A stretch of DNA of 64,000 nt from NCBI GenBank assembly GCA_014444615.1, contig PVXE01000002.1, positions 124,001 to 188,000 of the forward strand. The letters run 5' to 3'. This DNA is from Tagaea sp. CACIAM 22H2 (GTDB lineage Bacteria; Pseudomonadota; Alphaproteobacteria; CACIAM-22H2). The notes below the pieces were generated by a model. The model was given only the letters and a program-made list of their open reading frames with translations, was not told the DNA's origin and made no database searches. The translations under genes were made by a program, and so were the position numbers. Positions 10,728 to 29,174 of the stretch are shown here, in pieces (within the stretch, counting starts at the first letter, position 1; every line of letters starts with the position of its first letter).

Positions 10728-10873
10728 GGTTACAGCGTTCAATTCGTTCGCGTTGGTGAACGATAGCTTCGCCCTGCTTCAAACAAGAAACCGGTGACGA
10801 AAAAAATTAATAAAAACAGTTATATATAAATATTAACTAAAGCGATATGCGAGGATTCGTCAGTCAAAACATC

Positions 10874-10904
10874 TTGACGCGATATGGTATATCATTGCTT
10901 ATAC
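10874..10904 (+). promoter_or_regulatory. Candidate promoter with internal GATAT-GGT-ATATC operator
   Basis: TTGACG (10874-10879) resembles a -35 element, and TTATAC (10899-10904) or GCTTAT (10897-10902) resembles a -10 element. A perfect dyad GATAT (10881-10885) / ATATC (10889-10893) sits between them. It lies about 30 bases upstream of the ABC binding-protein start, downstream of a strongly AT-rich tract (10800-10840). The arrangement suggests a repressible promoter. Confidence 0.45.
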
Positions 10905-10933
10905 GCGCCTCATTTTCCAGTGCGAGGTTGGCG

Positions 10934-12478: not shown

Positions 12479-13407
12479 TCCGCGCGCTGGCGGCGCGGCT
12501 CGTTCAAGCGGCACTGGTGGCACTGCTGGTCGGCGTCGCGTGTTTCGCGATCGTCGAATTGCTGCCTGGCGATCAAGCGTATCGTGTCGCCTCGGCGCGC
12601 TACGGTGAAGATATGGCCAGCGGCAAGGCCGCCGAGGCGGTGCGCGCCGAACTCGGGCTCGACCGTCCTTGGCCGATCCGTCTCGCCGCGTGGTTGGGCG
12701 GGATCGCGACCTTCGATTTGGGCGTTTCGCTGGTTAGCGGCGAGAACGTCGCGGTCGAGCTAGGCCACCAATTCGGTGCGACGCTCGGGCTGTCGCTCTT
12801 GGCGCTCGCTTTATCGGCGGCGGTCGGTATTCCGTTGGGTATCGCGATGGCTTTGCGCGGCGGGGCGCTCGACGCGGGCGGGCTCGTCGTCGCGGCGGCG
12901 TTGCGCGCGACCCCCGCCTATTTGATCGGGCTTGGCCTGATGCTGCTGATTGCGGTGCAGTGGGGATTGCTGCCCGCGGCCGGTTACGACAACGCCGCCG
13001 CGTGGCCCTTGCCGGCGGCGACGCTGGCGTTGGGCCTTGCCGCGATGTCGATGCGCGTGACGCGCGATGCTGCCGCGCGCGTATTGGCACGCGCCGATAC
13101 GCATTTCGCGCGCACGAAGGGTCTGCCGGAATCCGCAGTGCTGCGCCGCCACGTGTTGCGCAACGCGGGCGTACCGGTCGTCGCGTATCTCGGGGTGCAG
13201 CTGGTTTGGCTGGTCGAAGGTGTGGTGGTGGTTGAGTCACTGTTTTCCTGGCCCGGTATCGGGCATGCGCTGATCCACGCCGTCATCGCCCGCGATGTGC
13301 CGATGCTGCAAGGCACCGCGCTCACGATGGGATTGCTGTTCGTGGCGTTGAACGCGGCGGTCGATCTTCTGTGCTTGGCCATCGATCCGCGCGGTCGGCG
13401 CGCATGA
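12466..13407 (+). CDS. DppB-type ABC transporter permease
   Basis: This 313-aa inner-membrane protein has about six helices and the binding-protein-dependent transport signature around VLRRHVLRNAGVPVVAYLG (EAA loop) and the LVEGVVVVESLFSWPGIG motif typical of DppB/OppB permeases. ATG at 12466 overlaps the binding-protein gene by 13 bases. It would form the channel with the next permease. Confidence 0.92.
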   Translation: MGALIRALAARLVQAALVALLVGVACFAIVELLPGDQAYRVASARYGEDMASGKAAEAVRAELGLDRPWPIRLAAWLGGIATFDLGVSLVSGENVAVELGHQFGATLGLSLLALALSAAVGIPLGIAMALRGGALDAGGLVVAAALRATPAYLIGLGLMLLIAVQWGLLPAAGYDNAAAWPLPAATLALGLAAMSMRVTRDAAARVLARADTHFARTKGLPESAVLRRHVLRNAGVPVVAYLGVQLVWLVEGVVVVESLFSWPGIGHALIHAVIARDVPMLQGTALTMGLLFVALNAAVDLLCLAIDPRGRRA

Positions 13408-14195
13408 ACCGCACGACGCTGTTTCGCGCGATCGGCTTCGCGCTGCTCGCCGCCGTCGCGATTTTCGCCCTTCTGGGGCCGGCGCTGATCGAGGCCGATC
13501 CGCTGCGCCAGAATTTACGCGCGGCGTTGCGCCCGCCTTCGGCCGAGTTCCTGTTCGGCACCGATCATCTCGGCCGTTCGATGCTGGCGCGCCTGGCGTC
13601 CGCCGCACGGCTGTCGCTCGGGCTGGCGGCAGCGGCGGTGCTGCTCGCGGGCATTATCGGTACGGCGCTGGGCGCCATCGCGGCGGCATCGCGCGGCGGC
13701 GCGTTGGATCGCGCCTTGTCGGGGCTGTGCGATGCGACGATGGCGCTGCCCGGTCTGCTGACGGTCGTGCTGATCGCCGCCTTGGCGCCGGGCAAGCTCT
13801 GGCCGCTTTATGCCGGGCTCGTCGCCACGCAATGGGTCGAGTTTTTTCGCCCGGTGCGCGCATTGGCGGCGGGGCGTCTGGCGGCGCCGGACGTCGAAGC
13901 GGCACGATTGTTCGGCTTCGGCGGCTGGCATGTTTTCCGCCGCCATTTGCTGCCCGAGCTGACGCCGCTGGTCGGCATGCTTGCGGCATTCGGCGTGGCA
14001 AGTACGGTGCTGGCGGTTTCCACGCTCAGCTTCGTGGGCATCGGCTTGCGCCCGCCCACGCCGGAATTGGGCAGCATGATGGTCGAGTTGCTGCCGCATT
14101 ACGCCGACGCGCCGTGGCAATTGCTCGCACCAGCACTGCTGCTTTTTGCGACGGTGCTGGGATTGCGTCTGGCCGCCGGCGGAGACGAAGCATGA
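13404..14195 (+). CDS. DppC-type ABC transporter permease
   Basis: This 263-aa permease has the N-terminal helix and ADPLRQNL-type leader of the OppC family, FGTDHLGRSMLARLASAARLSL, and the EAA loop near ARLFGFGGWHVFRRHLLPEL. ATG 13404 overlaps the dppB-like stop (ATGA). It pairs with the upstream permease. The length is normal for the family. Confidence 0.92.
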   Translation: MNRTTLFRAIGFALLAAVAIFALLGPALIEADPLRQNLRAALRPPSAEFLFGTDHLGRSMLARLASAARLSLGLAAAAVLLAGIIGTALGAIAAASRGGALDRALSGLCDATMALPGLLTVVLIAALAPGKLWPLYAGLVATQWVEFFRPVRALAAGRLAAPDVEAARLFGFGGWHVFRRHLLPELTPLVGMLAAFGVASTVLAVSTLSFVGIGLRPPTPELGSMMVELLPHYADAPWQLLAPALLLFATVLGLRLAAGGDEA

Positions 14196-15592
14196 GTGCG
14201 GCACCGATGCTGGCGGTCAAGGGCCTGTCGGTTCACGCGGGCGGCAAAGCGCTGGTGCGCGATGTCGATCTGCGCGTCGCGGCGGGCGAATGCCTGGTCG
14301 TGATGGGCGAAAGCGGCTCGGGCAAGTCGCTGCTGGCGCATGCGATCATGGGCGATCTGGCGCCCGGACTCGTCGCGCGCGGCGAAGTCAGCGTCGCGGG
14401 CGAAAGGATCGATGCGTTGACGCAAGACGAGCGGCGCGCGTTCTGGGGCAAGCGGATCGCGTTGCTGCCGCAAGAGCCGTGGCTGTCGCTCGATCCCTTG
14501 ATGCGCGTCGAAAGCCAGATTGCGGAAACCCATGCGCTGGTCGCCGGGCGCGATTGGGCCAACGCGAAGGCATGCGCGGCCAAGGATCTTGGCCGTTTGG
14601 GGCTTTCGGCGTCCGCGCGGCAATTGCCGTTCCGCCTGTCCGGCGGCATGGCGCAGCGCGTGGCCATCGCCGCGACGATGGCGGCGGAGGCGGGGTTGCT
14701 GATCGCCGACGAGCCGACAAAGGGGCTTGATGCCGATGCTTGCGCCGGGGTCGCCGCGTCGCTGCGTGCGCAGATGGAACATGGCCGCGCCGTCGTGGTC
14801 GTGACCCACGATATCGGTCTGGCCCGTGCCCTGGGCGGGCGGATCGCGGTGATGCGCAATGCCGACATGGTCGAGACCGGCGACACGCGCGACGTTCTGT
14901 CGGCGCCGCGCCACGATTATACGAAGATGTTCGTCGCCGCCGATCCGGCGAAATGGCCGCGTCCGGTTGCGCATACCGGCGGCGCGCCGGTGCTGCGAGG
15001 CGAAAGCCTTTCCGCCGCGCGCGGCGCGAAAACCTTGTTCGAGGCTGTCGATGTCACACTCGCACGCGGCGAGATCGCCTGCGTGCAAGGCCCCAGCGGC
15101 GGCGGCAAGACGACGCTGGGCGCGGTGCTGTTGGGGCTTTTGCCGCCGCAGCGTGGCGTGGTGCGCCGCGCGGACGGCGTGGAAGCGTGGCGCTATCAGA
15201 AACTCTATCAAGATCCGGTCGCGGCCTTCGCCCCGTATTCGAGCCTGCGCATGGCGTTGGACGATGTCGTTCGGCTACACGGCGGCGAATGGGCGGCTGT
15301 CGAGGCGATCCTGGCGCGGTTGTCGGTGCCGCTCGACCTGCTCGATCGGCCGCCCAGCCAAGTCTCGGGCGGCGAGTTGCAGCGTGTGGCGATCGCGCGG
15401 GCGTTGATCGTCGATCCGGTTTTCCTGTTCGCGGACGAGCCGACGTCGCGCCTCGATCCGCCGATCCAGCGCGCGACGATGGAATTGCTGCGCGAACTCG
15501 CCGGCGAACGCGGCCTCGCCATGCTGCTGGTGACGCACGATCCCGACCTTGCCGCCGCGATGTCGGCGCGTGACCCCATCCGAATTGGTTAG
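14192..15592 (+). CDS. Fused double ABC ATPase (DppD-DppF type)
   Basis: A single 466-aa chain carries both nucleotide-binding domains of a peptide-type importer. Domain 1 has Walker A GESGSGKS (about 38-45), signature LSGGMAQR and Walker B LLIADEPTKGLD. Domain 2 starts near residue 265, with Walker A GPSGGGKT, signature VSGGELQR and Walker B FLFADEPTSRLD. Fused DppDF proteins are common in alphaproteobacterial family-5 importers. Start ATG 14192 overlaps the permease stop. It completes a four-gene importer operon, and no clear intrinsic terminator follows. Confidence 0.93.
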   Translation: MSAAPMLAVKGLSVHAGGKALVRDVDLRVAAGECLVVMGESGSGKSLLAHAIMGDLAPGLVARGEVSVAGERIDALTQDERRAFWGKRIALLPQEPWLSLDPLMRVESQIAETHALVAGRDWANAKACAAKDLGRLGLSASARQLPFRLSGGMAQRVAIAATMAAEAGLLIADEPTKGLDADACAGVAASLRAQMEHGRAVVVVTHDIGLARALGGRIAVMRNADMVETGDTRDVLSAPRHDYTKMFVAADPAKWPRPVAHTGGAPVLRGESLSAARGAKTLFEAVDVTLARGEIACVQGPSGGGKTTLGAVLLGLLPPQRGVVRRADGVEAWRYQKLYQDPVAAFAPYSSLRMALDDVVRLHGGEWAAVEAILARLSVPLDLLDRPPSQVSGGELQRVAIARALIVDPVFLFADEPTSRLDPPIQRATMELLRELAGERGLAMLLVTHDPDLAAAMSARDPIRIG

Positions 15593-15786: not shown

Positions 15787-16959
15787 GTGATCGCGTGCGA
15801 TTGCCGCCAAGCTGCCGAGGTCCATTTGGACGCCACCTTGCCACTGCGCGACGCCATTTCCCCGGCCGAAGCATCGCCGGCATCGGCTCGATTGGGCGAG
15901 GCGCTGTCGGTCGCGGGCATCGTACATGCTTATTCCGGGGCGCCGGCTGTGGACGATGTGTCGTTCGATGTGCCGGCCGGCGGTGTCGCCGCGATATTGG
16001 GGCCCAGCGGTTGCGGCAAGTCGACGATGCTGCGGATCATCTCCGGCCTCGTCACGCCGACGGCGGGTGTCGTCCGCCTCGGCGCACGCGACGTGACCCG
16101 TATGCCAGCGCGCGAGCGGCGCGTGGGCATGGTGTTCCAGAACTACGCGTTGTTCCCGCATATGACCGTGCGCGAGAACGTCGGCTACGGTTTGTCCGGC
16201 CTGAAGGGGGCGGAGAAGCGCGCGGAGGTCGACAAGCTTCTCGCCCTCGTGCGGCTCGAGAAATTCGCCGATCGATTGCCGCGCCAAATGTCGGGCGGCC
16301 AGCAGCAGCGCGTGGCGGTGGCCCGCGCGCTGGCGCCCCGTCCGACATTGCTGCTGCTCGACGAGCCATTCGCCGCTCTCGATCGCGCCTTGCGCGCCGA
16401 TATGCAATTCGAGTTTCTGCGCCTGCAACGCGAACTCGGTATCACGACAATCCTGGTCACGCACGACCAGGAGGAAGCGCAAGCTGTCGCCGATCGACTG
16501 ATCGTGATGAACGCGGGCAAGGTCGAGCAGGCGGGCAGCCCATCGGAACTTTACGATCGGCCGAGAACGTTGTTCGTCAACACCTTCGTCGGCCAGGCGT
16601 CGGTGATCAAAGCGAGCGTCGCGGCCGAAAGCGAGACCGCATCGACGCTGCGCTTGTCGACCGGCGACGAGATCCATTTGCCGCGCCGCAGCGGCTTCAT
16701 GCGCGGTACGAACGTCGTCATCGCCGTGCGGCCGGAGCATGTCGTACTGCACGAGAAGCCCGCGCCCGGCGCCATTCCGGCGCGCCGCATGATGGCCGTG
16801 CCGCAAGGCCCGCTGCGCCTGCACGACTTGCTGCTTGCCGACGGCACGCCGCTGAAAGCCGCGGAGCGCCGGGCGCCCGGCGCCTCCGACGCGCCGCCGG
16901 GCGGCACCGTTCACGTCACTTTCGAGCTCGATCACTGCCGTCTCTATCCGTCGTCATAA
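15787..16959 (+). CDS. Spermidine/putrescine-type ABC importer ATP-binding protein
   Basis: This cytoplasmic ATPase has Walker [10 protein letters not shown]-loop [13 protein letters not shown], signature MSGGQQQR, Walker [13 protein letters not shown] and a C-terminal TOBE-like domain (about 280-385), as in PotA/FbpC-type proteins. The longest reading starts at GTG 15787, five bases after the operator, giving 390 aa. A TTG at 15826, with GAGG five bases upstream, gives 377 aa and may be the better start. It heads the operon with a binding protein and two permeases. Confidence 0.9.
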
Positions 16960-16991: not shown

Positions 16992-18032
16992 ATGCTCAAT
17001 CGCAAACTCTCCCGCCGTTCCGTCATGGCGGGGCTCGGCGGCCTCGTGGCCGCGCCGATGCTGGGCGTATCGCGCGCCCGTGCGGCGGGCTCCGTCGTCG
17101 TCGCCGCGTTTCCCGGCTCGTGGGAAGACGCCTATCGTGCGGCCGTCGCGCCGGTCGTGAAGGCGGCGGGCACCGAGTTGGTGCTCGCACCCGCGCTGGC
17201 GCAGGATCAGCTCGCGAAGCTTCTGGCGAGCCAAGGCAAGCCCGCGTTCGATGCGATGATGGTATCGCCCGGTCAGACGACCGAAGCGATCGCGCGCGGC
17301 CTGATCGAAAAGGTCGATCCCAGCAAGCTCAAGAACTGGAGCAAGCTGCTGCCGGCCGCGCAGACCGAGTGGGGCCCCAACGTGACGGTCGAGATCACGG
17401 GCTTCGCCTACAACCCGAACCTCGTGCCCAAGCCCAAGACCTATCGCGAGCTGTTCGACAATCCCGTCTATCACGGCAAGGTCGGCTGGGTCGGCTTCGG
17501 CTCGAACACCGCCACGCTGGCCTGGGTCGAAATCGCCAAGGCGTTCGGCGGCAGCGAAGACAATATGGCGCCCGCGTTCAAGATCCTCGCCGAACATCTC
17601 AACAAGGGCGCGGTGATCGCCAATAGCGGCAACCAGCAAATGGCGCTTTACCAGCAGAACGAAATCGCGGTGTTCATTTCCAGCGTGGGCAACGTCGCGA
17701 ATTTGAAGGCGCGGGGCGTGCCGTGCGAGTTCGCGCATCCGACGACGGGTTCGCCCGCCTTGCCGGTGGCGCTGCATCTCGTGAAGGGGGCCGCGAACCC
17801 CGAAGGCGTCTACCAGTATATGGACGCGGCGATCTCGGCCGATGTGCAGCGCAAGCTCGCCCAGCCGCCGTCCGAAATCCTGCCGACGAACACCGACGTG
17901 CCGCTGACCGACAGCCTGAAGTCGTTCATCAGCGACGCCGACATCAAGAATCTGATCTATCCCAACTGGGCGAAGATCAATCCCAACCGCGCTGCGTGGT
18001 CGGCCGAGTTCGACCGCGTGGTGAAGAAGTAA
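16992..18032 (+). CDS. Polyamine-type ABC transporter substrate-binding protein, Tat-like signal
   Basis: This 346-aa periplasmic binding protein is of the PotD/FbpA type (SBP_bac_6/8-like). Its N-terminus carries twin arginines in SRRSVMAG followed by a hydrophobic core and an ARA-A cleavage site near residue 32, suggesting Tat export. A strong ribosome site (AGGAGAAGGA) precedes ATG 16992. The mature start AGSVVVAAFPGSWEDAY resembles spermidine/putrescine-type binders. The ligand is not identifiable; neighbouring amidase and M24 genes hint at a nitrogenous amide or guanidino-type compound (inference). Confidence 0.9.
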   Translation: MLNRKLSRRSVMAGLGGLVAAPMLGVSRARAAGSVVVAAFPGSWEDAYRAAVAPVVKAAGTELVLAPALAQDQLAKLLASQGKPAFDAMMVSPGQTTEAIARGLIEKVDPSKLKNWSKLLPAAQTEWGPNVTVEITGFAYNPNLVPKPKTYRELFDNPVYHGKVGWVGFGSNTATLAWVEIAKAFGGSEDNMAPAFKILAEHLNKGAVIANSGNQQMALYQQNEIAVFISSVGNVANLKARGVPCEFAHPTTGSPALPVALHLVKGAANPEGVYQYMDAAISADVQRKLAQPPSEILPTNTDVPLTDSLKSFISDADIKNLIYPNWAKINPNRAAWSAEFDRVVKK

Positions 18033-18055: not shown

Positions 18056-18886
18056 ATGACCCGCGGCGGCATTCCGTTCGTGGCGCCGATGCTGGCGCTG
18101 TCGATCGCGGGTTTCCTCGTGCCCCTCGTCGTGCTGGCGGCTTTCAGTTTCAGCGATCCGGCGGGCGGCTTCGGCATGGCGAACTACGTCAAGCTGTTCG
18201 CCGACCCGCTGGCGCTGCAAGTTTTGTTCGACACGCTGGCGCTGGGTTTCAAGGTCGTCGCGTCGACGACCTTGATCGGCTTGCCGATCATTCTGCTGTT
18301 CTGGCATGCGGGCCCGCGCGAGCGCAGCTTGATCGTCTTTCTGACGTTGCTGCCCATGCTGGTCAGCAACGTCGTGCGCACCTTCGCCTGGATCGTCATC
18401 CTCGGCCGCCAAGGGCCGGTCAGCCAAACGCTGGCGCAGCTTGGCTTCATTCCGGCCCCGCGCAGCCTGTTGTTCAACGAGACGGCCGTGGTCGTGGTGC
18501 TGAGCCAGATCGAGTTGCCGCTGCTGCTGCTGCCGGTCATGGCGGTGCTGTCGCGCACCGATCGCAGCCTCGTCTCGGCCGCGGAAACGCTGGGGGCGGG
18601 GCCGTGGCGTATTCTCGCGACCGTCATCCTGCCCTTGGCGGCCCCGGGCATTCTGGCGGGCTGGGTGCTGGTCTTCGCCAGCGCCACAACGTCCTACGTC
18701 ACCCAATCGGTGATTGGCGGGGCGCGGCATATCTATTTGCCGCAATACATCTATCGCGAGGTCGGCGTGCTGTTCCAATGGCCGTCGGCGGCGGCGATCG
18801 CCTTCGTGTTGCTGGCGACGACCGGAATCATCATGGCGGCGATGGCGATGCTGGCGCGCCACCCGAGGCTCGCGTCGCATGGCTAA
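18056..18886 (+). CDS. PotB-type ABC transporter permease
   Basis: This 276-aa polytopic protein has six helices. The EAA-type loop is ETLGAGPWRILATVILPLAAPGI near residues 180-202. A purine-rich ribosome site (AGAGGGGAACGCAGG) precedes ATG 18056, 23 bases after the binding-protein stop. It forms the heteromeric channel with the following permease, whose start overlaps this stop by 8 bases. Confidence 0.92.
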   Translation: MTRGGIPFVAPMLALSIAGFLVPLVVLAAFSFSDPAGGFGMANYVKLFADPLALQVLFDTLALGFKVVASTTLIGLPIILLFWHAGPRERSLIVFLTLLPMLVSNVVRTFAWIVILGRQGPVSQTLAQLGFIPAPRSLLFNETAVVVVLSQIELPLLLLPVMAVLSRTDRSLVSAAETLGAGPWRILATVILPLAAPGILAGWVLVFASATTSYVTQSVIGGARHIYLPQYIYREVGVLFQWPSAAAIAFVLLATTGIIMAAMAMLARHPRLASHG

Positions 18887-19682
18887 CGGCGACCGCCTTT
18901 ATCGCGCCGTCGTATTCGGCCTGGGTTGGCTCGCCGTCGCCTTCATGGTGGCACCGGTTGCCGTCGGTCTCGTCATGTCCTTCACCGCCGGCCAAACGTT
19001 GAAATTCCCGCCCGATGGGTTTTCGCTGCGCTGGTACACGGCGCTGTTCGATCCGGTGCGCTCGGCGCCGATCCACACCGCCATTTGGAACTCGCTGCAG
19101 ATCGCGGTGCTGACGGTTCTTGGCGCGTTCCTGTTCGCGATGCCGGCGGCGTATGGAGCCACGCGCCTCAAAGGCAAAGTCTCGGCGATCGTCGAGCCTT
19201 TGATGTTGGCACCGCTGGTGCTGCCCACGCTCGTCTACGGTCTCGCGGCATTGATTGCGTTCAGCAATATCGGCTTGCGCCCGTCGCTGCCGCTGGTCGT
19301 GCTGGGGCATGTCGTGGTCTTCGGACCGCTGATGTATCGCGCCTGCATCGCCATCGCGCAGCGCCTCGACCCGAGCCTCGAAGAAGCTTCGACGCTGCTC
19401 GGCGTCGGCGCCTTCATGACTTTCTTGCGCATCACGCTGCCGCTGATGGTGCCGGGCATTCTGGCGGGTGCGTTCCTCGTATTCATGCAGTCGCTCGACA
19501 ACGTCTCGGTCTCGCTCTTCCTCGCCGACGCGCGCACATCCGTTCTGCCGCTGCGCATGTTCCAGATGATCGAGGAATCGCTGGATGTGCGTGTCGCCGC
19601 GATTTCGGGCGTGCTCATCGGTGTCGTGTTCGTCGGTCTGTTTTTCGCCCGCCGCGTCCTCGAACCCGCACGCTCCGCTTAA
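18879..19682 (+). CDS. PotC-type ABC transporter permease
   Basis: This 267-aa permease has six helices and the conserved loop EASTLLGVGAFMTFLRITLP (EAA motif) near residues 167-186. ATG 18879 lies inside the end of the previous permease gene, implying translational coupling. Together with the genes at 15787, 16992 and 18056 it makes a complete importer. Confidence 0.92.
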   Translation: MANGDRLYRAVVFGLGWLAVAFMVAPVAVGLVMSFTAGQTLKFPPDGFSLRWYTALFDPVRSAPIHTAIWNSLQIAVLTVLGAFLFAMPAAYGATRLKGKVSAIVEPLMLAPLVLPTLVYGLAALIAFSNIGLRPSLPLVVLGHVVVFGPLMYRACIAIAQRLDPSLEEASTLLGVGAFMTFLRITLPLMVPGILAGAFLVFMQSLDNVSVSLFLADARTSVLPLRMFQMIEESLDVRVAAISGVLIGVVFVGLFFARRVLEPARSA

Positions 19683-19709: not shown

Positions 19710-21119
19710 ATGACGATCATCGCCAAATCGACGCGCCCCACCATCGAAGCTCTAATGGCGGATTTCGCGCCGAATTTCGACTTCGTTCCGCCGCCGCCGT
19801 TGCCCGTGGCGGAGTACGAGGAGCGTCTGCGCCGCGTGCGGCGCGAAGCTGTCGTCGCGGGACACGACGCGATCGTCATCCATACCGGCATGGTCGGCTG
19901 GTTCCACGCCTCCAACGCCTATCTGCGTTACATGATCGATTGGATGCGCGAAGGCGTGTTGATCATTCCGTGCGACAACGACAAGCCGCTGACGCTTCTG
20001 ACCTTCTTCACCGAATCCGTGATCCTGCCGCCGGGCGGCGAGCCCGTGCTGGTCGACGATATCTGGCAGGTCGGCGCGATCGGCCGCGAATACGCCGATC
20101 GGCCCGGCACGTCGGACGAGAAGGCGGGCGAGGCGGCGGCCAAGTTCCTGCTCGATCAATTCGGGCCGAGCGCCCAGATCGGCCGTATCGGCGACGGCAA
20201 GTCGGTCAAGTTCTGGGCGCAGCTTCAGGAATTGATGCCCAAGACGAAGTTCGTCGCCGAGAACGGCATCATCGATCGCATGCAGCGCGTGCGCTCGCCG
20301 CGCGAGATCGATATGTTCCGCGCCGCCGGTCAGTTGATCGATATCGCGACGCAAGCCGCCTATCACGTGACCAAGCCCGGCGTCACCGATCACGAGATCT
20401 TCGGCGCCTTCACCTTCGCGCAGATGTCGCGCGGCGGCGAAACCGGCGACGGGTATCAGATCGGCATCAACGAGTTCGGCACGCATTGCGGCAAACCCTA
20501 TGGCCATGTCGTGCGGCCCGGCGATCTGATCAATCTCTATATCTCGAACGTCACGTTCCGCGGCTACACCGCGCAGACCGCGCGCATGATCGCGGTGGGC
20601 GATATCACCAAGCATCAGGAGAAGGTGATCGTGGCTTGCGTCGAGGGCGTGAAGCGCGCGGAAAAGCTGATCAAGCCCGGCGCCTTGTTCCGCGATATCA
20701 ACAATGCGGCGTTCGAGCCTTATATCGAGGCGGGGCTTTTGACGTCGCCGGAAGCGCGCACCATGCCCTATATCTGGGCGCCGGAGGATGACGGCAGTCC
20801 GCGCTTGGTGAAGCGGCAATATGTCCGCGACATCGATTGGGAAGCGCAAGGCCGCAAGCTGATGCATGTTTATCCCGCGCAATACGGGCCGCATAATCCC
20901 AATCTCGGCCATTCGATCGGCATGGCGGGGGCGGGGAACAGCTTCAACGTCTCGTCCCACAATTATGATCGCTTGGAGGAAGGCATGGTCTTCGTCCTGC
21001 ACACGCAATGGATCGAACCGCTGAACGCGGGCTGCAACGTGGGCGATCTCTACGCCGTCACCAAAGACGGGTTCGAGAATTTGAGCCGCCATACGCCGCT
21101 CGATCTGCATCGTGTGTAA
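19710..21119 (+). CDS. Creatinase-like M24-family hydrolase lacking most metal ligands
   Basis: This 469-aa two-domain protein has a creatinase/prolidase N-terminal domain (about 35-190) and a C-terminal pita-bread M24 domain. Aligned by eye to aminopeptidase P, four of the five metal-ligand positions are replaced: Asp to Y277, Asp to Q289, Glu to H431 and Glu to G445. Only H401 (in LGHSIGM) is kept. Creatinase is the known metal-free member of this fold, so a metal-independent C-N hydrolase is more likely than a peptidase. The gene lies 27 bases after an ABC permease with AGGAA upstream, and before an HbpS-like gene and an amidase. The substrate is unknown. Confidence 0.85.
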   Translation: MTIIAKSTRPTIEALMADFAPNFDFVPPPPLPVAEYEERLRRVRREAVVAGHDAIVIHTGMVGWFHASNAYLRYMIDWMREGVLIIPCDNDKPLTLLTFFTESVILPPGGEPVLVDDIWQVGAIGREYADRPGTSDEKAGEAAAKFLLDQFGPSAQIGRIGDGKSVKFWAQLQELMPKTKFVAENGIIDRMQRVRSPREIDMFRAAGQLIDIATQAAYHVTKPGVTDHEIFGAFTFAQMSRGGETGDGYQIGINEFGTHCGKPYGHVVRPGDLINLYISNVTFRGYTAQTARMIAVGDITKHQEKVIVACVEGVKRAEKLIKPGALFRDINNAAFEPYIEAGLLTSPEARTMPYIWAPEDDGSPRLVKRQYVRDIDWEAQGRKLMHVYPAQYGPHNPNLGHSIGMAGAGNSFNVSSHNYDRLEEGMVFVLHTQWIEPLNAGCNVGDLYAVTKDGFENLSRHTPLDLHRV

Positions 21120-21132
21120 GGAGCGGCGGGCG

Positions 21133-21627
21133 ATGGCCGATCTCAAGGACACGCGCAATCTCACGCTCGCGGGCGGGCTAAAGGTTCTCCACGCGGCAAT
21201 CGCGGCGGCGGAGAAGATCGGACAGCCCATGTGCATCTGCGTCGTGGATCTCGGCGGCAATATTGTGGCGCTGGCGCGCATGGACGGGTCGAAGGCGATC
21301 AGCGTGATCTCGGCCACCAACAAGGCGCGCACGGCCGCTTTGTCGGGCGAACCGACGGGCGGGGCGCATGCGGATGTCGAAATCCAGATCGCGCTGGCGT
21401 CGGAGAATAAATGGACGAACCTGATCGGCGGCTTGCCGATCCGCGTTGGCGGCATCGTGGTCGGGGCCATCGCCGCCGGTTCGGGGACCGGGGCGCAGGA
21501 CCTTGCGGTCGCGCGCGCCGGGGCGGCCGCCATCGCGGGCGCCGATATGTTCGAAGGATTCGTGCCGATGGAGGCCGAGGATACGGGTATCGTGCGCGGC
21601 TCGCATCCGGACAAGGTCCGTGGCTGA
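21133..21627 (+). CDS. GlcG/HbpS-family (DUF336) protein
   Basis: This 164-aa cytoplasmic-looking protein has the GlcG/HbpS family layout: an N-terminal helix (AAIAAAEKIGQPMCICVVD), a central beta region GNIVALARMDGSKAISV, and the conserved C-terminal GGLPIRVGGIVVGAIAAGSGTGAQD. ATG 21133 is chosen because AAGGAG lies 9 bases upstream; an upstream ATG at 21112 would overlap the M24 gene. The family often sits in catabolic operons with no defined role. Some members bind haem or corrinoid. Confidence 0.88.
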   Translation: MADLKDTRNLTLAGGLKVLHAAIAAAEKIGQPMCICVVDLGGNIVALARMDGSKAISVISATNKARTAALSGEPTGGAHADVEIQIALASENKWTNLIGGLPIRVGGIVVGAIAAGSGTGAQDLAVARAGAAAIAGADMFEGFVPMEAEDTGIVRGSHPDKVRG

Positions 21628-23038
21628 CTCCGCCGCCACGATCGCCGCGCATGTGTGCGCGCGCCGGCTGAGTGCCGTCGAAAGCGCTACGGCGGCGCTC
21701 GACGCGATTTCGGCGACCGATCCCGAGATCCATGCTTTCTGCACGATCGATCCGGACGATGTGCTGGCGCAGGCGCGCGCCGTTGACGCCCGCATCTCGA
21801 AGGGCGATGCCTTGCCGCTGGCGGGCGTGCCCGTCGCGATCAAGGACCTGATTCTGACGAAAGGGCTGCGCACGACCTTCGCGTCGCCGCTTTATGCCCA
21901 GAATATCCCCGAGATAGACGATGTCAGCGTCGCGCGATTGCGCGCTGCCGGTGCCATTGTGATCGGCAAGACCAACGCGTCGGAATTCGGCTACGGCCCC
22001 GTCGGGCGCAACAAGCTGTTCTCCACGACGCGCAATCCTTGGAATCCCGTTCTCACAACGGGCGGGTCGAGTGCCGGAACGGGTGCGGCGGTCGCCGCCG
22101 GCATGGTGCCGTTCGGCTTGGGCAGCGACGGCGGCGGCTCGATCCGCATTCCGGCCGCCCTTTGCGGTGTCGCAGGGATGAAAGCGTCGTGGGGGCGCGT
22201 GCCGCTTTTCCCCGGATGCCGCGATGAATCGCAGCCGGGCGCATCGAGTTGGGAGTCGCTGGAACATATCGGCCCGCTGGCGGCCTGCGTCGCGGATCTC
22301 GCCTTATGCCTTTCCGTCGTCGGCGGGCCCACAGCGGACGACAGACATTCCGTGCCGCTGGAACCCGGCGCGTTCGCCATCGCGCCGCCGGAAACGTTGC
22401 GGGGCTTGCGCATCGCCTATAGCGGAACGCTGGGTTTCGCGAAGGTTGAGTGCGATGTCGCGGAGCGCTGCGCGACGGCCGCCGTCGCGTTCGCGCGCGC
22501 GGTCGGCGCCACGTTGATCGAAGCCGATCCACCCGTGGGCGACACGCACGAAGCGTTCGATGCCCTGGTGGCGCTCGATACGGATCGCGATGGCCTCCGG
22601 CGCATGGCGGCGGCGCAAGGCCATGTGTTCGACGGCGCGCTCGGCCGTTTGTTGGCGCGCGACTGGACCGCCGACGAATTCACCGCCGCGATCATGGCGC
22701 GCAAGAAGGTCGCCCGGATAATGGCGCGTTTCATGACCGAGTTCGACCTGTTGTTGACGCCGACGACGGCGTGCGCGGCCTATCCGCTCGAAGCGCCCGA
22801 GCCGAAAGGGTGGACGCCGTTCACGGCGCTCGCCAACCTGACCGGTCAGCCGGCGGCGAGCGTTCCGGCGGGGCTCACCGGCAACGGCCGGCCCGTCGGC
22901 TTGCAAATCATCGGCCGGCATCTCGCCGATGCCCAAGTATTGAGCGCTTGCGCGGCCTTCGAGGCGATCTTGCCTTGGGCGGCGCTTCGGCCAAAAATCG
23001 CCGCTGCGAATCGCGCATTGGGGGCGTTGCCAGTATGA
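21620..23038 (+). CDS. Amidase-signature family hydrolase
   Basis: This 472-aa Ser-cisSer-Lys amidase has its catalytic lysine in VAIKDLI (near residue 75), the Gly/Ser-rich signature GGSSAGTGAAVAAG and the second serine in GSDGGGSIRIPAA. It starts at GTG 21620, overlapping the HbpS-like gene by 8 bases, with AAGG 4 bases upstream. It hydrolyses a C-N amide bond. Placement with the M24 hydrolase and importer suggests stepwise breakdown of an imported amide, but the substrate is not defined. It lacks the features expected of a GatA in a gatCAB operon. Confidence 0.9.
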   Translation: MADSAATIAAHVCARRLSAVESATAALDAISATDPEIHAFCTIDPDDVLAQARAVDARISKGDALPLAGVPVAIKDLILTKGLRTTFASPLYAQNIPEIDDVSVARLRAAGAIVIGKTNASEFGYGPVGRNKLFSTTRNPWNPVLTTGGSSAGTGAAVAAGMVPFGLGSDGGGSIRIPAALCGVAGMKASWGRVPLFPGCRDESQPGASSWESLEHIGPLAACVADLALCLSVVGGPTADDRHSVPLEPGAFAIAPPETLRGLRIAYSGTLGFAKVECDVAERCATAAVAFARAVGATLIEADPPVGDTHEAFDALVALDTDRDGLRRMAAAQGHVFDGALGRLLARDWTADEFTAAIMARKKVARIMARFMTEFDLLLTPTTACAAYPLEAPEPKGWTPFTALANLTGQPAASVPAGLTGNGRPVGLQIIGRHLADAQVLSACAAFEAILPWAALRPKIAAANRALGALPV

Positions 23039-23634
23039 GCAAGGCTGCAAAAGTCGAGAAGATGCCGGCGTCACGCGATCTGCAGATCGGCGCGCGCGTG
23101 CGTCATGCGCGGATCCTCGCGGGGATCCGGATGCGCGAATTGGCCGAGCGGATCGGCTGCGCCGAAAGCTCGATTTCCAAGATCGAGAGCGGCCATGTCG
23201 TGCCGTCGCTGCCGATGTTGCAGCGGATCGTCGAAGCGCTGGGCCGCGATTTGTCGTCGTTCTTCGGCGCGGACCTCGATGCGCCCGCGATCATTCAGCG
23301 TGCCGGGCAGCGCGTTGTGGCGCTGACCGATCCGATCCGCGACGGAAAGGGCATCAAGTACGAACGCATGATCTCGTTTGCGACCGGCAATCTCCTCGAA
23401 GCGAATATCCATATCGTTGAGCCGGGCGGCGGGCGCGAAGATCGCGTGACGCATCAGGGCGAAAGCTTCGGCTATGTCATCGAAGGACAGATCGAACTGA
23501 CGATTGAAAACTCGCCCTACATGCTGTCGGCGGGCGATTCCTTCTCGTACAAGAACCACCTGACCAGCAGCTATCGCAATCCCGGCACGGTCGTCGCGCG
23601 GATGCTGTGGGTCAACACGCCGCAGGTTCATTAG
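23035..23634 (+). CDS. XRE-family transcriptional regulator with cupin sensor domain
   Basis: This 199-aa DNA-binding protein has an HTH_3/XRE domain at about 18-75 (IGARVRHARILAGIRMRELAERIG, then AESSISKIESGHVVPSLPML), then a cupin_2 domain at about 110-190 with GESFGYVIEGQIELTIEN and LSAGDSFSYKNHLTSSYRN. This architecture (PuuR-like) commonly senses a small ligand and represses the neighbouring catabolic operon. ATG 23035 overlaps the amidase stop (ATGA), so it is the last gene of the ABC/M24/amidase operon. It is the prime candidate to bind the dyad at 15762-15782. Confidence 0.92.
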   Translation: MSKAAKVEKMPASRDLQIGARVRHARILAGIRMRELAERIGCAESSISKIESGHVVPSLPMLQRIVEALGRDLSSFFGADLDAPAIIQRAGQRVVALTDPIRDGKGIKYERMISFATGNLLEANIHIVEPGGGREDRVTHQGESFGYVIEGQIELTIENSPYMLSAGDSFSYKNHLTSSYRNPGTVVARMLWVNTPQVH

Positions 23635-23762: not shown

Positions 23763-24167
23763 TCAAGTGCCGGAAAAGAGCGATTTTACAGCCGAAAACG
23801 GGAGCTTAACGCAGTCATGCCGGCTTTTGTGCCGCGCGACGGGCGCAAACGCGTCCCACGGGGCCGGGGCGGACCCACCCGCAAGCACCGATTCGACCGC
23901 CGCTTGGGCGTCGGCCAATGCCGCGCGGGCGGGTTTGCCGTCGAGCACGCGTGCCAGCGCGGCCGCCGAGGCTTGGCATAACGCGCAGCCGCGCACCTTG
24001 TGGCGGATATCGCGCGCGATACCCTTCTCGAGTTTGCCGTCGAATGTCACGCGATCGCCGCACAGCGGATTGTCGACCGTGACGCCCGTTCCCGGCGGCA
24101 ACGCGGCCGCATGCGTGCGGTCCTTGGAGAGCGCCATCAACGCGTCGTGATACAGCGCGTCGTTCAT
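23763..24167 (-). CDS. sufU: SufU-type sulfur-transfer scaffold protein
   Basis: This 134-aa SufU/NifU-N family protein has three conserved cysteines, C36 in NPLCGD (with D38), C61 in GCALCQASA and C119 in DCVKLPF. These positions form the zinc/sulfur acceptor site in SufU. ATG 24167 overlaps the SufS stop (ATGA). SufU accepts persulfide sulfur from SufS; here both are last in a chain of molybdenum-hydroxylase maturation genes rather than in a sufBCD operon. The start was set by the overlap; the upstream in-frame extension is Arg-rich shadow. Confidence 0.9.
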   Translation of the reverse strand: MNDALYHDALMALSKDRTHAAALPPGTGVTVDNPLCGDRVTFDGKLEKGIARDIRHKVRGCALCQASAAALARVLDGKPARAALADAQAAVESVLAGGSAPAPWDAFAPVARHKSRHDCVKLPFSAVKSLFSGT

Positions 24168-25351
24168 GTCAGCACGCGCTTGGCGTCGGCGAGACCGGCG
24201 AAGAACAGGTCGATATCGTCGTCCTCGCAATAGAGGGCGAACGACGCGCGCGTCGTGCCCGCGAGATCGAATTTCGCGTGCAGCGGTTGCGCGCAATGAT
24301 GCCCGCCGCGCAACGCCACGCCATGCCGATCCATGATCTGGCAGATATCGTGCGGATGCGCCCCCGCGAGATCGAACGACACGACGGGTGCGCGGCCCTG
24401 CAAGCTTTGCGGCCCGATCACGGTCACACCGTCGACCGCGCGCAATCCGTCGAGCAAACGGCCGGTCAAGCGCAGCTCATGCGCTGCAATCGCCGCCCAA
24501 TCGAGCGTGCCGAGCCATTCGCAAGCCGCCCCCAAACCGATCGCGCCGGAAATCGGCGGCGTGCCCGCCTCGAATTTCGCGGGCGCATTGGCCGGCGTGA
24601 AGCCTTGCATGGTGACGCTCGCGATCATCTCGCCGCCGCCCAGGAAAGGCGGCATCGCGTCGAGCAATTCAGATCGTGCCCACAACACGCCCACGCCATG
24701 CGGCGCGAAAGCTTTGTGGCCGCTGAACGCGTAGAAATCGACGCCGAGGGCGGGAATATCGACGGGCCCGTGCGGCGTGCGCTGCGCGCCGTCGAGCAGC
24801 ACGCGCGCGCCCACGCGCTTGGCTTCCGACACGATCGCCGGCACGTCGAGGACCGCGCCCGTCACGTTCGACACATGGGCGAGCGAAACGAGCTTCGTGC
24901 GCGGCGACAGTGCCTGCGGCACAATGCGCCCTTCGCCATCGACCGGTAGGAAATTCACCTTCACGCCGTTGCGCGCCGCCAACATATGCCACGGCACGAT
25001 GTTGGAATGATGCTCGAGCTCCGAGACCGCGATCTCGTCGCCGGGCTTCAGCAGCGCGCCAAAGGATTGCGCGACGAGATTGATGGCTCCCGTGCAGCCG
25101 CTCGTGAACACGATTTCCTCGGCGGGCACCGAAAGATACGCGGCGACTTGGGTGCGCGCCTTCGCGTAAGCCTCGGTCGCCGCTTCGGCCAACCGATGAA
25201 CCCCGCGTTTGACGTTGGCGCGCGCGCCCGTTTCGAATACACGCACCGCGTCGAGAACGATATCGGGCGTTTGTGCCGTGGCGCCGCTATCGAGATAGGC
25301 GATGCGCGGGCCCGGCTGGTTCAGCAGCGGGAAATGCCGACGAAGGGTCAC
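24164..25351 (-). CDS. sufS: SufS-type cysteine desulfurase
   Basis: This 395-aa PLP class-V aminotransferase-fold enzyme has the Schiff-base lysine K213 in FSGHKAFAPHG, catalytic C353 in RGGHHCAQP and cofactor contacts SELEHHSN and LLDGAQ. It removes sulfur from L-cysteine as an enzyme persulfide. It starts at GTG 25351, overlapping the stop of the MoeA-MobA gene (GTGA). It is coupled to sufU downstream and to moco genes upstream. A role in supplying the terminal sulfido ligand of the Mo cofactor through XdhC is an attractive inference, known in principle from NifS4-XdhC in Rhodobacter. Confidence 0.92.
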   Translation of the reverse strand: MTLRRHFPLLNQPGPRIAYLDSGATAQTPDIVLDAVRVFETGARANVKRGVHRLAEAATEAYAKARTQVAAYLSVPAEEIVFTSGCTGAINLVAQSFGALLKPGDEIAVSELEHHSNIVPWHMLAARNGVKVNFLPVDGEGRIVPQALSPRTKLVSLAHVSNVTGAVLDVPAIVSEAKRVGARVLLDGAQRTPHGPVDIPALGVDFYAFSGHKAFAPHGVGVLWARSELLDAMPPFLGGGEMIASVTMQGFTPANAPAKFEAGTPPISGAIGLGAACEWLGTLDWAAIAAHELRLTGRLLDGLRAVDGVTVIGPQSLQGRAPVVSFDLAGAHPHDICQIMDRHGVALRGGHHCAQPLHAKFDLAGTTRASFALYCEDDDIDLFFAGLADAKRVLT

Positions 25352-26955
25352 GCGGATCTCTCCCGCGCCGCACGGAAGGCGGCCAAGGCTTCGGCGGTGT
25401 CGAGATCGACCAGCACGCCGTCGTCCGGCATCGGCACTTCGCAAAGCATGTCTTCGTGTTTACGCATGACGATACGCGCGCCCTGATCGCCGTCGAGGGC
25501 GAGGATCTCGGCGAAGAAATCGCGGCCCCACAAAACGGGATTGCCGCGCTTGCCGTCGAAGGCCGAAACGCAGATCGCGCGGCCCTCGATGGGCGAAAAG
25601 GCGGCGATCAGGCGATCGACATGCGCCGCCGCGACCAAGGGCATGTCGCCGAGCAGCACGACGGCGCCGTCGCAATCGAGCGGCACTTGCGCGATGCCCG
25701 CGCGCACGGAGCTGGCGAGGCCGCTGGCGAAATCCGGGTTCTCGACCACCGCGACATCGGCCGGCAAAGCGGCCTTGGCGCGCGCGGCGTCGTTGCCGAC
25801 GACCACGATCGTATGCGCGGCCTGGGAATTCGTCGCGGCGGTGACGGCGCGCGACAGCATCGTTTGTCCGTCAATCTCGACGAACAGCTTGTTCGCGGGC
25901 GCCATGCGGCTGGATTTGCCGGCGGCGAGCACGATGGCGGCGATCTTCGGCGCTTTGGGTGCGGCCGCTTCGCCCGCACGCGGGGTCGGGCGCGGGATTT
26001 CGGCGAGCAAGCCGCCGACCCCCATACGTGCAATCGCGTCGCGGCCGATGGGCAAGCCCGCCGCGTGGCGGCGCAGCACCCAATCGAAGCCGTTGAGCTT
26101 GGGCGAGCGCGCGCAGCCGGGCAGGCCAATGACAGAGGACGAACCGAAACGCGCGACGAGCAGCAGATTGCCGGGATCGACCGGCATGCCGAAATGCTCG
26201 ACATTGCCGCCCGCCGCTTCGATCGCGGCGGGGATCGCGTCTCGCCGATCGACGACAGCGGAGGCGCCGATGACCAGGATGGGATCGCAACCGGATGCGG
26301 CGCGAAGTTCCTGCGCGATGGCGGCGGCGTCGTGTGCGCAGATGCGCACGGATTCCAGCGTGGCGCCCAAGGCAGCAAGGCGCTGTTTCGTCGCGTCTTC
26401 GGTTTTCTCCAACACGGATGTCTTCGTGCCGGGCAGGCGCGTTTGGATCAGCGCCGCGCGCTTGGGCGTGAAGGGCGCGAAGGTCACGGCGTTCGCCGCG
26501 AGCGCCAAGCATGTCTCCAACGCCTTACGTGGTGCCGCGAAAGGTATGATTTTCACCGTCGCCAGCATCGTGCGCGGCTCGGCCGGGGCGAGATCGGCAA
26601 GCGTTGCGACGGTGATCGCCTCGTCAACCGCGTTGATCGCGTCGATCTTGGCGGCGTCGATGCGTACCAGGCCGGGCGCCTTGGCGAATAGATTGCAGCG
26701 CCCGGTGAAGGGGGCCGCGACCTCGATGCCGTCGCCCGCCAACGCTTTGGCCAACGCATGCGCCGCATCGTCCTCGGCCACGTCGTCGGCGTCGAGCCTT
26801 GCGACCACGACCGATGCCACACCCGCATCGTTCAATGCGGCGATATCGGCCGTGTTGAGCTTGCGGCCTTTGCGCAGCGACACCGCACCCGCGCGCACGC
26901 CATGGGCGAGGATCGCCCCTTCGGCTTGGGCGGGCGGGACGGGGCCGAAAAACAT
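25348..26955 (-). CDS. Molybdopterin-binding (MoeA-like) / MobA-like nucleotidyltransferase fusion
   Basis: This 535-aa two-domain cytoplasmic protein has an N-terminal ~330 residues that resemble the MoeA/MogA-type molybdopterin-binding fold (LVIGASAVVDRRDAIP, PGNLLLVARFGSS, GLPGCARSPKLNGFDWVLRR). The C-terminal ~190 residues are a MobA/MocA NTP-transferase, with LAAGKSSRMAPANKLFVEIDG as the nucleotide-binding loop, VVLLGDMPLV as the Asp metal site and GKRGNPVLWG. Such proteins prepare the dinucleotide (MCD) form of the Mo cofactor used by xanthine/CO dehydrogenase-type enzymes. Start ATG 26955 overlaps the XdhC stop. Confidence 0.88.
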   Translation of the reverse strand: MFFGPVPPAQAEGAILAHGVRAGAVSLRKGRKLNTADIAALNDAGVASVVVARLDADDVAEDDAAHALAKALAGDGIEVAAPFTGRCNLFAKAPGLVRIDAAKIDAINAVDEAITVATLADLAPAEPRTMLATVKIIPFAAPRKALETCLALAANAVTFAPFTPKRAALIQTRLPGTKTSVLEKTEDATKQRLAALGATLESVRICAHDAAAIAQELRAASGCDPILVIGASAVVDRRDAIPAAIEAAGGNVEHFGMPVDPGNLLLVARFGSSSVIGLPGCARSPKLNGFDWVLRRHAAGLPIGRDAIARMGVGGLLAEIPRPTPRAGEAAAPKAPKIAAIVLAAGKSSRMAPANKLFVEIDGQTMLSRAVTAATNSQAAHTIVVVGNDAARAKAALPADVAVVENPDFASGLASSVRAGIAQVPLDCDGAVVLLGDMPLVAAAHVDRLIAAFSPIEGRAICVSAFDGKRGNPVLWGRDFFAEILALDGDQGARIVMRKHEDMLCEVPMPDDGVLVDLDTAEALAAFRAARERSA

Positions 26956-27647
26956 CAGGGCTTCCGGCGCGCCTGGACGATTTGCGCGACGATCGACACC
27001 GCGATTTCGGCGGGCGACAACGCGCCGATATCGAGCCCGACGGGGCCACGAATGCGCGCGAGCGCGGCATCGTCGTGGCCTAGTTCTTTAAGGCGCGCCA
27101 GGCGCGCCGCATGCGTCTTTCGCGAACCCAGCGCGCCGATATAGAAGGCGGGCGATTTGAGGGCGGCGTCCAATGCGGGATCGTCGATCTTCGGATCGTG
27201 GGTCAGCGTGACAATCGCGCTGCGCGTATCGGGCTTCAACTCGGCCATCGCATCGTCCGGCCATTCGGTCGAAACGGCGTATTCTTCGAAACGCTGCGAC
27301 GTGGCGAAGGCACGGCGCGGATCGATCAGCGTGACGCCATAGCCCGCCATCACGCCCATGCGCGCGAGCGGATCGGCGATATGCACCGCCCCGACGACGA
27401 TCAAACGCGGCGGCGGATTATGAACCTGCACGAAGACGGGACCCGCGCCGGTTTGCAGCGTGCCGGATTCGTCGCGCGCCAGCATGTCTTGCATGCCGAT
27501 GATCATGTCGACGTCGAGGCACAGCGGACCTTCGGTGCCGTCCTTGAAGATCAGCTTCTGCGCGCCGGAGCGCAGATTGGTGGCGAGCGCCACCGGCCGC
27601 TTGGCGCGGCGGGCTTCCTGCAACGCGGCGAGAATGGTGGCGTCCAT
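26955..27647 (-). CDS. XdhC-family Mo-hydroxylase maturation factor, Rossmann domain
   Basis: This 230-aa XdhC C-domain has the dinucleotide-type fold RLIVVGAVHIADPLARMGVMAGYGVTLIDPR and the conserved LTHDPKIDDPAL and FYIGALGSRKTHAARLARL motifs. XdhC/CoxF proteins bind the sulfurated Mo cofactor and insert it into the apo-hydroxylase. Here the N-terminal XdhC_CoxI domain is a separate gene 4 bases upstream, so the usual two-domain protein is split. ATG at 27647; the stop overlaps the next gene (TGATG). Confidence 0.9.
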   Translation of the reverse strand: MDATILAALQEARRAKRPVALATNLRSGAQKLIFKDGTEGPLCLDVDMIIGMQDMLARDESGTLQTGAGPVFVQVHNPPPRLIVVGAVHIADPLARMGVMAGYGVTLIDPRRAFATSQRFEEYAVSTEWPDDAMAELKPDTRSAIVTLTHDPKIDDPALDAALKSPAFYIGALGSRKTHAARLARLKELGHDDAALARIRGPVGLDIGALSPAEIAVSIVAQIVQARRKP

Positions 27648-27651
27648 CGCG

Positions 27652-27966
27652 TCAGCCCAATTTCTCGACGAAGACTTGAACCTTGCCGCCGCAGGCGAGG
27701 CCGACTTCCCAGGCTTGCTCGTTCGTCACGCCGAAATCGAGCAAGCGCGGCTTGCCGTCGCCGATCGCGGCGAGGGCTTCCTTGATGACGGCACCCTCGA
27801 TGCAGCCGCCGGAGACCGAGCCCAAGAATTTGCCCTCGCCATCGACGGCGAGCTGCGAGCCCACCGGCCGGGGCGACGAGCCCCAGGTCGTCACCACGGT
27901 GGCAAGCGCCACGTTGCGGCCTTCCTTGCGCCAAGCTTCGGCTTGGTCGAGCACGTCTTCGGTCAT
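27652..27966 (-). CDS. XdhC/CoxI-family N-terminal domain protein
   Basis: This 104-aa protein corresponds to the N-terminal XdhC_CoxI domain: WRKEGRNVALATVVTTWGSSPRPVGSQLAV, GKFLGSVSGGCIEGAVI and the cysteine-containing GLACGG near the C-terminus. The conserved Cys residues in SGGCIEG and LACGG could handle sulfur. ATG 27966 is chosen because it overlaps the coxE stop (ATGA); an ATG six codons upstream is possible. It probably works with the XdhC Rossmann protein encoded next. Confidence 0.88.
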   Translation of the reverse strand: MTEDVLDQAEAWRKEGRNVALATVVTTWGSSPRPVGSQLAVDGEGKFLGSVSGGCIEGAVIKEALAAIGDGKPRLLDFGVTNEQAWEVGLACGGKVQVFVEKLG

Positions 27967-29174
27967 GCGGCCATCCCTCGCCAAACGTAACGGCCCCGAA
28001 TGCGCGGGGCTTCGCCCAGGGCTTCGACCAGCGCTTCGAGCGAGTCGAGATTATGGACCGGGCGGAATTCGTCGACATACGGCAGGATCGCCCGGATCCC
28101 CAAAGATTTGGGTTCGAAGCGGTCGTATCGCAAGAGGGGGTTGAGCCAGACGAGCCGCCCGCAGGATTTGGCGAGGCGCTCGGCCTCCACGGCCAACCCA
28201 TCGCCCGCCTCGCGATCAAGGCCGTCGGTCACCAGCAGCACCGTGGGCGAGCGCGCCAGGCTGCGCCGCGACCAGCGCCAATTGAATTCGCGCAAACACG
28301 CGCCGATGCGCGTCCCGCCGGACCAATCCTCGACCAGCTCGGCGATTTTCGACAACGCCTTGTCGACGTCCTTCTGGCGCATCGCGCGCGTCACGTTCGT
28401 CAAGCGCGTGCCGAACAGAAAGACCTGCACGCGCGCCCGGTCGGTCGCCAGCAGATGCAGGAAATGCAGCAACATGCGCGCGTAGCGTTCCATCGAACCG
28501 GAAATGTCGAGCAGCACGACCAAAGGCGGCTCCTCGACGCGCGGCGCCTTGAAGGCGAGGGTCGCCATATCGCCGCCCGAACGCAGCATCGCGCGGATCG
28601 TCGCGCGATGATCAAGGCGCTGGCCGCGCTTGTCGGGTTTGTGGCGGCGCGTGCGCCGCATCGGGAAGGGCGAGACCAGACGCGCCATGGCGCGTTGCGC
28701 GCGCGCGATCTCGTCGGCCGACATTTGCTCGAAATCCTTCTTTTGCAGGAGTTCGCGCTCGGAGAACGTCATCGCCGCGTCGAAACGTTCTTCGTCTTCC
28801 TGCTGTTCGACCGGGCGCGGGGCGCGATCGACGGTATTGAAGGCATCGGCCACGCGGCGCAACGGCTCCTCCACCTCGCCCTTGTCGTCGCCGACGGGCG
28901 AGGGCGGCAGCAGCGTGCTCATCGCGCGCTCGAGCAGCTTGGGATCGCGCCAGAACATGCGGAACGCTTGGTCGAACACCTCGCGCTGGTCGCGACGGTT
29001 GACCAGTGTGGCGTGCAGCGACCAATAAAGATCGGATTTGCTGGCCACGCCCGCGGCACCCACGGCGCGCACGGCTTCGATCGCGCGGCCGGGCCCCACG
29101 GGAATGCCGGCCGCGCGCAGCAACCGCGCGAAGCGCACGATGTTCTCGACCAGCGTGCCTTCGCCGTCGCTCAT
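27963..29174 (-). CDS. coxE: CoxE-type von Willebrand factor A domain protein
   Basis: This 403-aa protein has a helical N-terminal half, an Arg-rich middle (PFPMRRTRRHKPDKRG) and a C-terminal VWA domain with MIDAS motif DISGSME near residue 233, completed by SGGT and VTDGLD. CoxE partners the MoxR ATPase CoxD in maturing the active site of CO-dehydrogenase-type molybdenum hydroxylases. ATG 29174 overlaps the coxD stop (ATGA). The length is usual for the family. Confidence 0.93.
   Translation of the reverse strand: MSDGEGTLVENIVRFARLLRAAGIPVGPGRAIEAVRAVGAAGVASKSDLYWSLHATLVNRRDQREVFDQAFRMFWRDPKLLERAMSTLLPPSPVGDDKGEVEEPLRRVADAFNTVDRAPRPVEQQEDEERFDAAMTFSERELLQKKDFEQMSADEIARAQRAMARLVSPFPMRRTRRHKPDKRGQRLDHRATIRAMLRSGGDMATLAFKAPRVEEPPLVVLLDISGSMERYARMLLHFLHLLATDRARVQVFLFGTRLTNVTRAMRQKDVDKALSKIAELVEDWSGGTRIGACLREFNWRWSRRSLARSPTVLLVTDGLDREAGDGLAVEAERLAKSCGRLVWLNPLLRYDRFEPKSLGIRAILPYVDEFRPVHNLDSLEALVEALGEAPRIRGRYVWRGMAA

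Follow-up and report, generated by a model that had tools for sequence, protein, structure and literature searches.

The window analysed here, the whole stretch of 64,000 nt from contig PVXE01000002.1 of Tagaea sp. CACIAM 22H2 (positions 124,001 to 188,000, forward strand), carries an intact open reading frame for an M24-fold protein of 469 amino acids (Table 1). The sole Pfam match of this protein was Peptidase_M24 (PF00557), which was recovered as a whole domain with an E value of 6.2e-25 and a score of 88.6 bits (cut-off, 23), residues 202 to 452 being aligned with profile positions 2 to 208 of 208. NCBIfam matches, on the other hand, were all far below their cut-offs, the best scoring 43.9 bits versus a required 420, and no curated subfamily model thus covers the protein. 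The orthologue on plasmid pAt of Agrobacterium fabrum C58 (ATU_RS25860) was named 'Xaa-Pro peptidase family protein' by PGAP, much as a preliminary description of this DNA had predicted when it expected automatic annotation to return an Xaa-Pro aminopeptidase.

Table 1. Features of the M24 locus, in positions of the window
Feature	Position	Strand	Details and basis
ABC transporter ATPase, PotA/PhnT2-like, with TOBE_2	15787-16959	+	Pfam ABC_tran, E 1e-39; top NCBIfam match PhnT2, below cut-off
Periplasmic solute-binding protein, SBP_bac_8, weakly PhnS-like	16992-18032	+	Pfam, NCBIfam, locus comparison
ABC permease 1, PotB/PotH-like	18056-18886	+	Pfam, NCBIfam, locus comparison
ABC permease 2, PotC-like	18879-19682	+	Pfam, NCBIfam, locus comparison
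M24-fold protein, 469 aa	19710-21119	+	ATG at 19710, stop at 21117-21119, intact
Codons for residues 344-397, holding the insertion of about 48 residues	20739-20900	+	Profile search and MAFFT alignment
HbpS-like protein (PF03928), directly 3' of the M24 gene	21133-21627	+	Alternative GTG start at 21112
Amidase-signature enzyme	21620-23038	+	PF01425, E 6e-100
XRE-cupin regulator, PuuR-like	23035-23634	+	Overlaps the amidase gene by 4 bases

The M24 gene starts 27 bases after the end of the second permease gene, which itself overlaps the first permease gene by 8 bases, and downstream the amidase gene overlaps that of the HbpS-like protein. Since several neighboring genes overlap by 4 to 8 bases, the arrangement indicated that the genes for the importer, the M24 protein, the HbpS-like protein, the amidase and the regulator form one operon. 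Orthologues of the ABC ATPase occupy the matching position in 10 other loci. Of the downstream genes, the HbpS-like gene is conserved only in the four window-clade loci, the amidase gene occurs in the window's genus and was not found in locus L002, and the XRE-cupin regulator is shared by L001, L002 and L029 of the window clade. Matches of the importer to the NCBIfam polyamine and aminoethylphosphonate transporter models were all below cut-off, and a polyamine substrate is therefore not claimed.

A second ABC importer, of the dipeptide/nickel type, immediately precedes the PotABCD-type operon on the same strand (10847-15592, +); its binding protein was identified as SBP_bac_5 by Pfam, and its permease and ATPase reading frames were judged from their translations. 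Elsewhere in the window, the minus strand carries a run of molybdenum-hydroxylase maturation genes (23763-30106), encoding a NifU_N-like protein, a cysteine desulfurase, a MoCF_biosynth/MobA-like fusion, a CoxE VWA protein and an AAA (MoxR/CoxD-like) ATPase, with XdhC split into two adjacent reading frames (XdhC_CoxI and XdhC_C). Also on the minus strand is a reading frame of 767 amino acids with Proton_antipo_M, MbhD and MbhE domains (8341-10644), an MrpA-type antiporter fusion.

M24 metallopeptidases bind two metals through the residues D, D, H, E and E. The corresponding columns were located in the window protein by four alignments, namely, phmmer against Deinococcus radiodurans PepQ (5cdl), an hmmsearch of PDB chains with the family profile, a MAFFT run on 37 M24 sequences (16 members of the family described below and 21 others), and a profile-profile comparison in hhalign between the family and a peptidase (E 1.4e-24). 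All four returned the same five columns, which hold Y277, Q289, H401, H431 and G445 in place of the first Asp, the second Asp, the His, the first Glu and the second Glu, respectively, so that only the His is kept and the D/D/H/E/E set has become Y/Q/H/H/G. The preliminary description had listed these four replacements and the retained H401, and it was right at every position; a shift of the ligand columns, which had been named beforehand as a result that would speak against it, was seen in none of the alignments.

The Y/Q/H/H/G set is invariant in 16/16 members in the MAFFT alignment, and dN/dS values of the window gene relative to its two nearest distinct members were 0.13 to 0.14, showing that the gene is under purifying selection. 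With the replacements fixed in this way at such low dN/dS values, loss of the ligands is due neither to chance nor to sequencing error, and a drifting pseudogene was rejected on the same grounds. Judged by these columns, the protein no longer has the canonical dinuclear metal site. A further residue, absent from the preliminary description, was found to be retained: H259 aligns with H232, the catalytic His of creatinase, within a similar motif (FQSGINTDGAH, with the creatinase 'GAH' His, versus YQIGINEFGTH), and H401 aligns with creatinase His324. Both pairings were obtained with MAFFT and hhalign, and H259 and H401 are candidate catalytic residues.

Relatives were gathered from genomes, metagenome-assembled genomes and plasmids, and the 16 members that were aligned share about 60 to 99% identity with the window protein. 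They come from the Alphaproteobacteria and one further proteobacterial class. Among the sampled plasmid matches, full-length identities stood at about 60% and above or at about 30% and below, with the range in the middle empty, and in a sample of 289 genomes of the window's class E values leapt from 1e-264 to 1e-24; because of these two gaps, we regard the subfamily as discrete. The nearest outside relatives in the 289-genome sample (L051 and L052, E about 1e-24) are of the type with complete metal ligands, as judged by eye from the L052 sequence and from the rows of both in the trees. Occurrence of the members is patchy, with 3 in 385 sampled genomes of the window's class (the window genome counted), 3/23 in its order, 4/151 in family f174 and, outside the class, 1/150 in family f216. 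On plasmids, 61 records matched with at least 80% query coverage, the matches listed all being from Rhizobiaceae; a scan of viral contigs for further sequences found none.

The members also share a feature next to the retained ligand. From the helix end after the PGA motif to the GH motif that contains H401, 57 residues were counted in 16/16 members, compared with 7 to 9 in the other 21 M24 proteins, which places an insertion of about 48 residues just N-terminal of H401 in every member and in 0/21 of the others. Strongly conserved within the insertion are R350, W356, D376-W377, the HVYP motif at 386-389 and the GP pair at 393-394. Because it is highly conserved and runs straight into H401, the insertion probably forms a cap over the active site or part of its lining.

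In both trees the 16 members formed one clade on a long branch with support of 100/100. The combination of invariant Y/Q/H/H/G, H259 and the 57-residue spacing was present in 16/16 members and in none of the 21 other M24 proteins, the signature being unique within this small reference set. Since the signature differs from those of creatinase and ectoine hydrolase and the insertion is confined to the members, the Y/Q/H/H/G proteins are, on these sequence characters, a distinct, small and well-conserved M24 subfamily. Open-licence papers on the subfamily, its gene cluster and related enzymes yielded no description of it, and the subfamily is apparently undescribed.

Comparison with known M24 systems set the subfamily apart from each of them. 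The best PDB sequence match was PepQ 5cdl (E 3e-17 with the profile); like this enzyme, prolidase and aminopeptidase P (M24B), the window protein has the pita-bread domain and retains H401, but it departs from them in the exchange of D/D/E/E for Y/Q/H/G, in the insertion and in an N-terminal half that can barely be aligned. With creatinase (1chm and 7yto) it shares the M24 fold, degraded canonical ligands, both His positions and the motif noted above. In creatinase, E262 and E358 bind the guanidinium group; these positions hold A291 and H431 in 16/16 members, and no acidic residue is found at either. Creatinases display the signature N/A/H/E/H, lack the insertion and belong to a separate clade, and one of the creatinase loci (L045) adjoins a creatininase gene.

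Ectoine hydrolase (DoeA/EutD, TIGR02993, 6twj) is likewise an M24-fold C-N hydrolase of solute catabolism in Proteobacteria without the canonical ligands; DoeA is similar to creatinase and opens ectoine (PMC3187862). By analogy, it is the nearest functional precedent for an M24 hydrolase devoid of the metal site. EutD loci, defined as those with TIGR02993 matches above the curated cut-off, have the signature E/P/Y/M/T, with Tyr at the H401 position and Met at that of H431, and have no insertion. The window protein scored 31 bits against this model (cut-off, 613) and does not carry this signature at the old ligand columns, and ectoine hydrolase was rejected as its identity. In one genome of family f174 (G462), the ectoine hydrolase model was matched 17 times, mostly below cut-off, and this genome thus holds a large paralogous M24 set.

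In the trees, a cluster (84/89) was formed by creatinase and EutD with three other M24 rows of non-canonical type, and the Y/Q/H/H/G family was not part of it. Constraining the family to join creatinase gave a tree 4.3 log units worse (p-AU 0.092), a penalty too small to reject a common origin firmly. A grouping of all M24 enzymes lacking the metal site had support of 78/53 only, and a single origin for all of them is not claimed. The preliminary description had proposed a C-N hydrolase of creatinase type, of which the His pair stands (H259 and H401 for H232 and H324) and the guanidinium-binding Glu pair does not; a grouping with creatinase was not recovered in the trees, though the AU test did not firmly reject it. 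Its remark that H431 differs from classical creatinase and may mark a distinct subgroup was borne out, as creatinase keeps a Glu at this position in the MAFFT and hhalign alignments. Further M24 proteins with degraded ligands, annotated as Xaa-Pro peptidases, were noticed in Sinorhizobium medicae (L039) and on Rhizobium plasmids (L040, L041 and L043), with M/E/H/E/S, E/R/Y/-/S and E/A/Y/M/S among their ligand sets, which suggests that non-canonical M24 proteins may be more diverse than their names imply.

The gene neighborhood was then compared among the 16 loci. A PotABCD-type importer is encoded immediately upstream of the M24 gene in 11 of them, corresponding to 11/11 members of clade I and to several bacterial families. 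Within clade I, the transporter proteins are 49 to 98% identical and the M24 protein is 74 to 99% identical; between the window and the loci of Rhizobiaceae, f174 and f216, the values are 49 to 66% for the transporter versus 74 to 77% for the M24 protein. Because it is the more conserved of the two, the M24 protein is likely the core function of the locus. On A. fabrum C58 pAt, the importer lies upstream of the M24 gene and a flavin reductase gene comes next, and a flavin reductase gene also adjoins the M24 gene in the f174 and f216 loci. Clade II (L013, L014, L015 and L026) has a different, sugar-type ABC transporter nearby, and an Asp/Glu/hydantoin racemase is encoded near the M24 gene in L013 and L014. 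At L028 (G053:C2:9000-28999), D-glutamate cyclase and fused 5-oxoprolinase genes flank the M24 gene, which may point to a D-glutamate/5-oxoproline pathway in that lineage; genes for a second hydantoinase B, an amidase and a TRAP transporter are also found there. Uptake together with C-N bond chemistry is the theme common to the clades, and as the neighboring enzymes differ between clades, no single pathway is indicated.

On balance, the explanation that we prefer, and on which we are evenly divided, is that the protein hydrolyzes an imported C-N compound independently of metal and is neither a creatinase nor a peptidase. The dinuclear site would have been lost from a protein that still has the pita-bread fold and two His residues of catalytic type. 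Lacking the canonical pair of metals, the enzyme would cleave a C-N bond (amide, lactam, ureido or amidino) by hydrolysis in a small solute that the PotABCD-type importer, encoded just upstream, takes up. H259, at the creatinase H232 position, could act on water, either as a general base or by shuttling protons, and the substrate may be polarized and held by H401, H431, Y277, Q289 and the insertion. Metal independence is likely in light of the ligand loss, and we infer C-N hydrolysis, the class of bond and the roles of single residues from sequence and analogy. The C-N reading draws on the gene neighborhood and on the known M24 enzymes without canonical ligands, the relevant neighbors being the amidase in the window, the 5-oxoprolinase, hydantoinase B, D-glutamate cyclase and amidase at L028 and the racemase at L013 and L014. 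Against it, amidases are common genes and three of the amidase-bearing loci belong to a single genus; nor is simple hydrolysis an obvious match for the flavin reductase encoded beside the M24 gene in Rhizobiaceae, f174 and f216.

The same residues would also suit a metalloenzyme holding one metal on new ligands (H401, H431 and H259, with Q289 or Y277 as possible additions), i.e., a three-His hydrolase, lyase or oxygen-dependent enzyme, which we consider unlikely. In 16/16 members, three His residues stand without variation at or close to the former site, the Glu-to-His change at 431 retains metal-binding ability, and the HbpS-like, cupin and flavin reductase neighbors fit redox chemistry. However, the bulk of M24 coordination (the two Asp and the second Glu) has become Y, Q and G, and we know of no M24 protein with a metal ligand set of the H401/H431/H259 type. 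The dimethylsulfoniopropionate (DMSP) lyase DddP offers a parallel, as an M24-related non-peptidase turned metal-dependent lyase, in which the metal ligands are kept around a binuclear, mainly iron center (PMC4108388); a non-peptidase M24 relative can thus retain its metals. Loss of four of the five ligands is also compatible with a catalytically dead scaffold that binds, senses or regulates in response to the imported solute, and non-peptidase M24 pseudoenzymes do exist (PMC3888471). We judge this quite improbable, since the M24 protein is better conserved than the transporter, the former active site shows no drift, its His, Tyr and Gln being fixed, and the catabolic-looking operon already has a regulator.

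Were the protein a true creatinase, or a guanidino-amidinohydrolase, in which residues had drifted, the shared catalytic-His motif and the two kept His positions would be accounted for, and the top creatinase match, 7yto, reached E values of 1e-7 with phmmer and 1e-12 with the profile. Prolidases nevertheless outscored creatinases, and with A291 and H431 at the Glu positions, an insertion foreign to creatinases and no union of the two in the tree, classical creatinase was rejected and the drifted version is most improbable. An ordinary metal-dependent Xaa-Pro peptidase whose ligands were misplaced by alignment has the PGAP name and the prolidases as top PDB matches in its favor, but the concurrence of four alignment methods on the columns and the fixation of the replaced residues in 16/16 members leave it hardly any credit, and the canonical peptidase was rejected on this evidence.

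The label 'Xaa-Pro peptidase', under which public databases name proteins of this subfamily, including the one on the pAt plasmid of A. fabrum C58, is thus probably wrong. More broadly, though with some doubt outweighing our confidence, the subfamily may represent a further independent conversion of the M24 metallopeptidase fold to a C-N enzyme, either metal-free or with a three-His site, that has an active-site set of its own and an insertion resembling a lid and that acts on a nitrogen compound not known so far to be broken down by this route. If the C-N hydrolase reading is true, the metal site would have been lost in at least one more M24 lineage besides creatinase and ectoine hydrolase, and the subfamily would provide a compact comparison set for the passage from a metallopeptidase active site to a metal-independent one, as well as a handle on a transport-coupled catabolic pathway.
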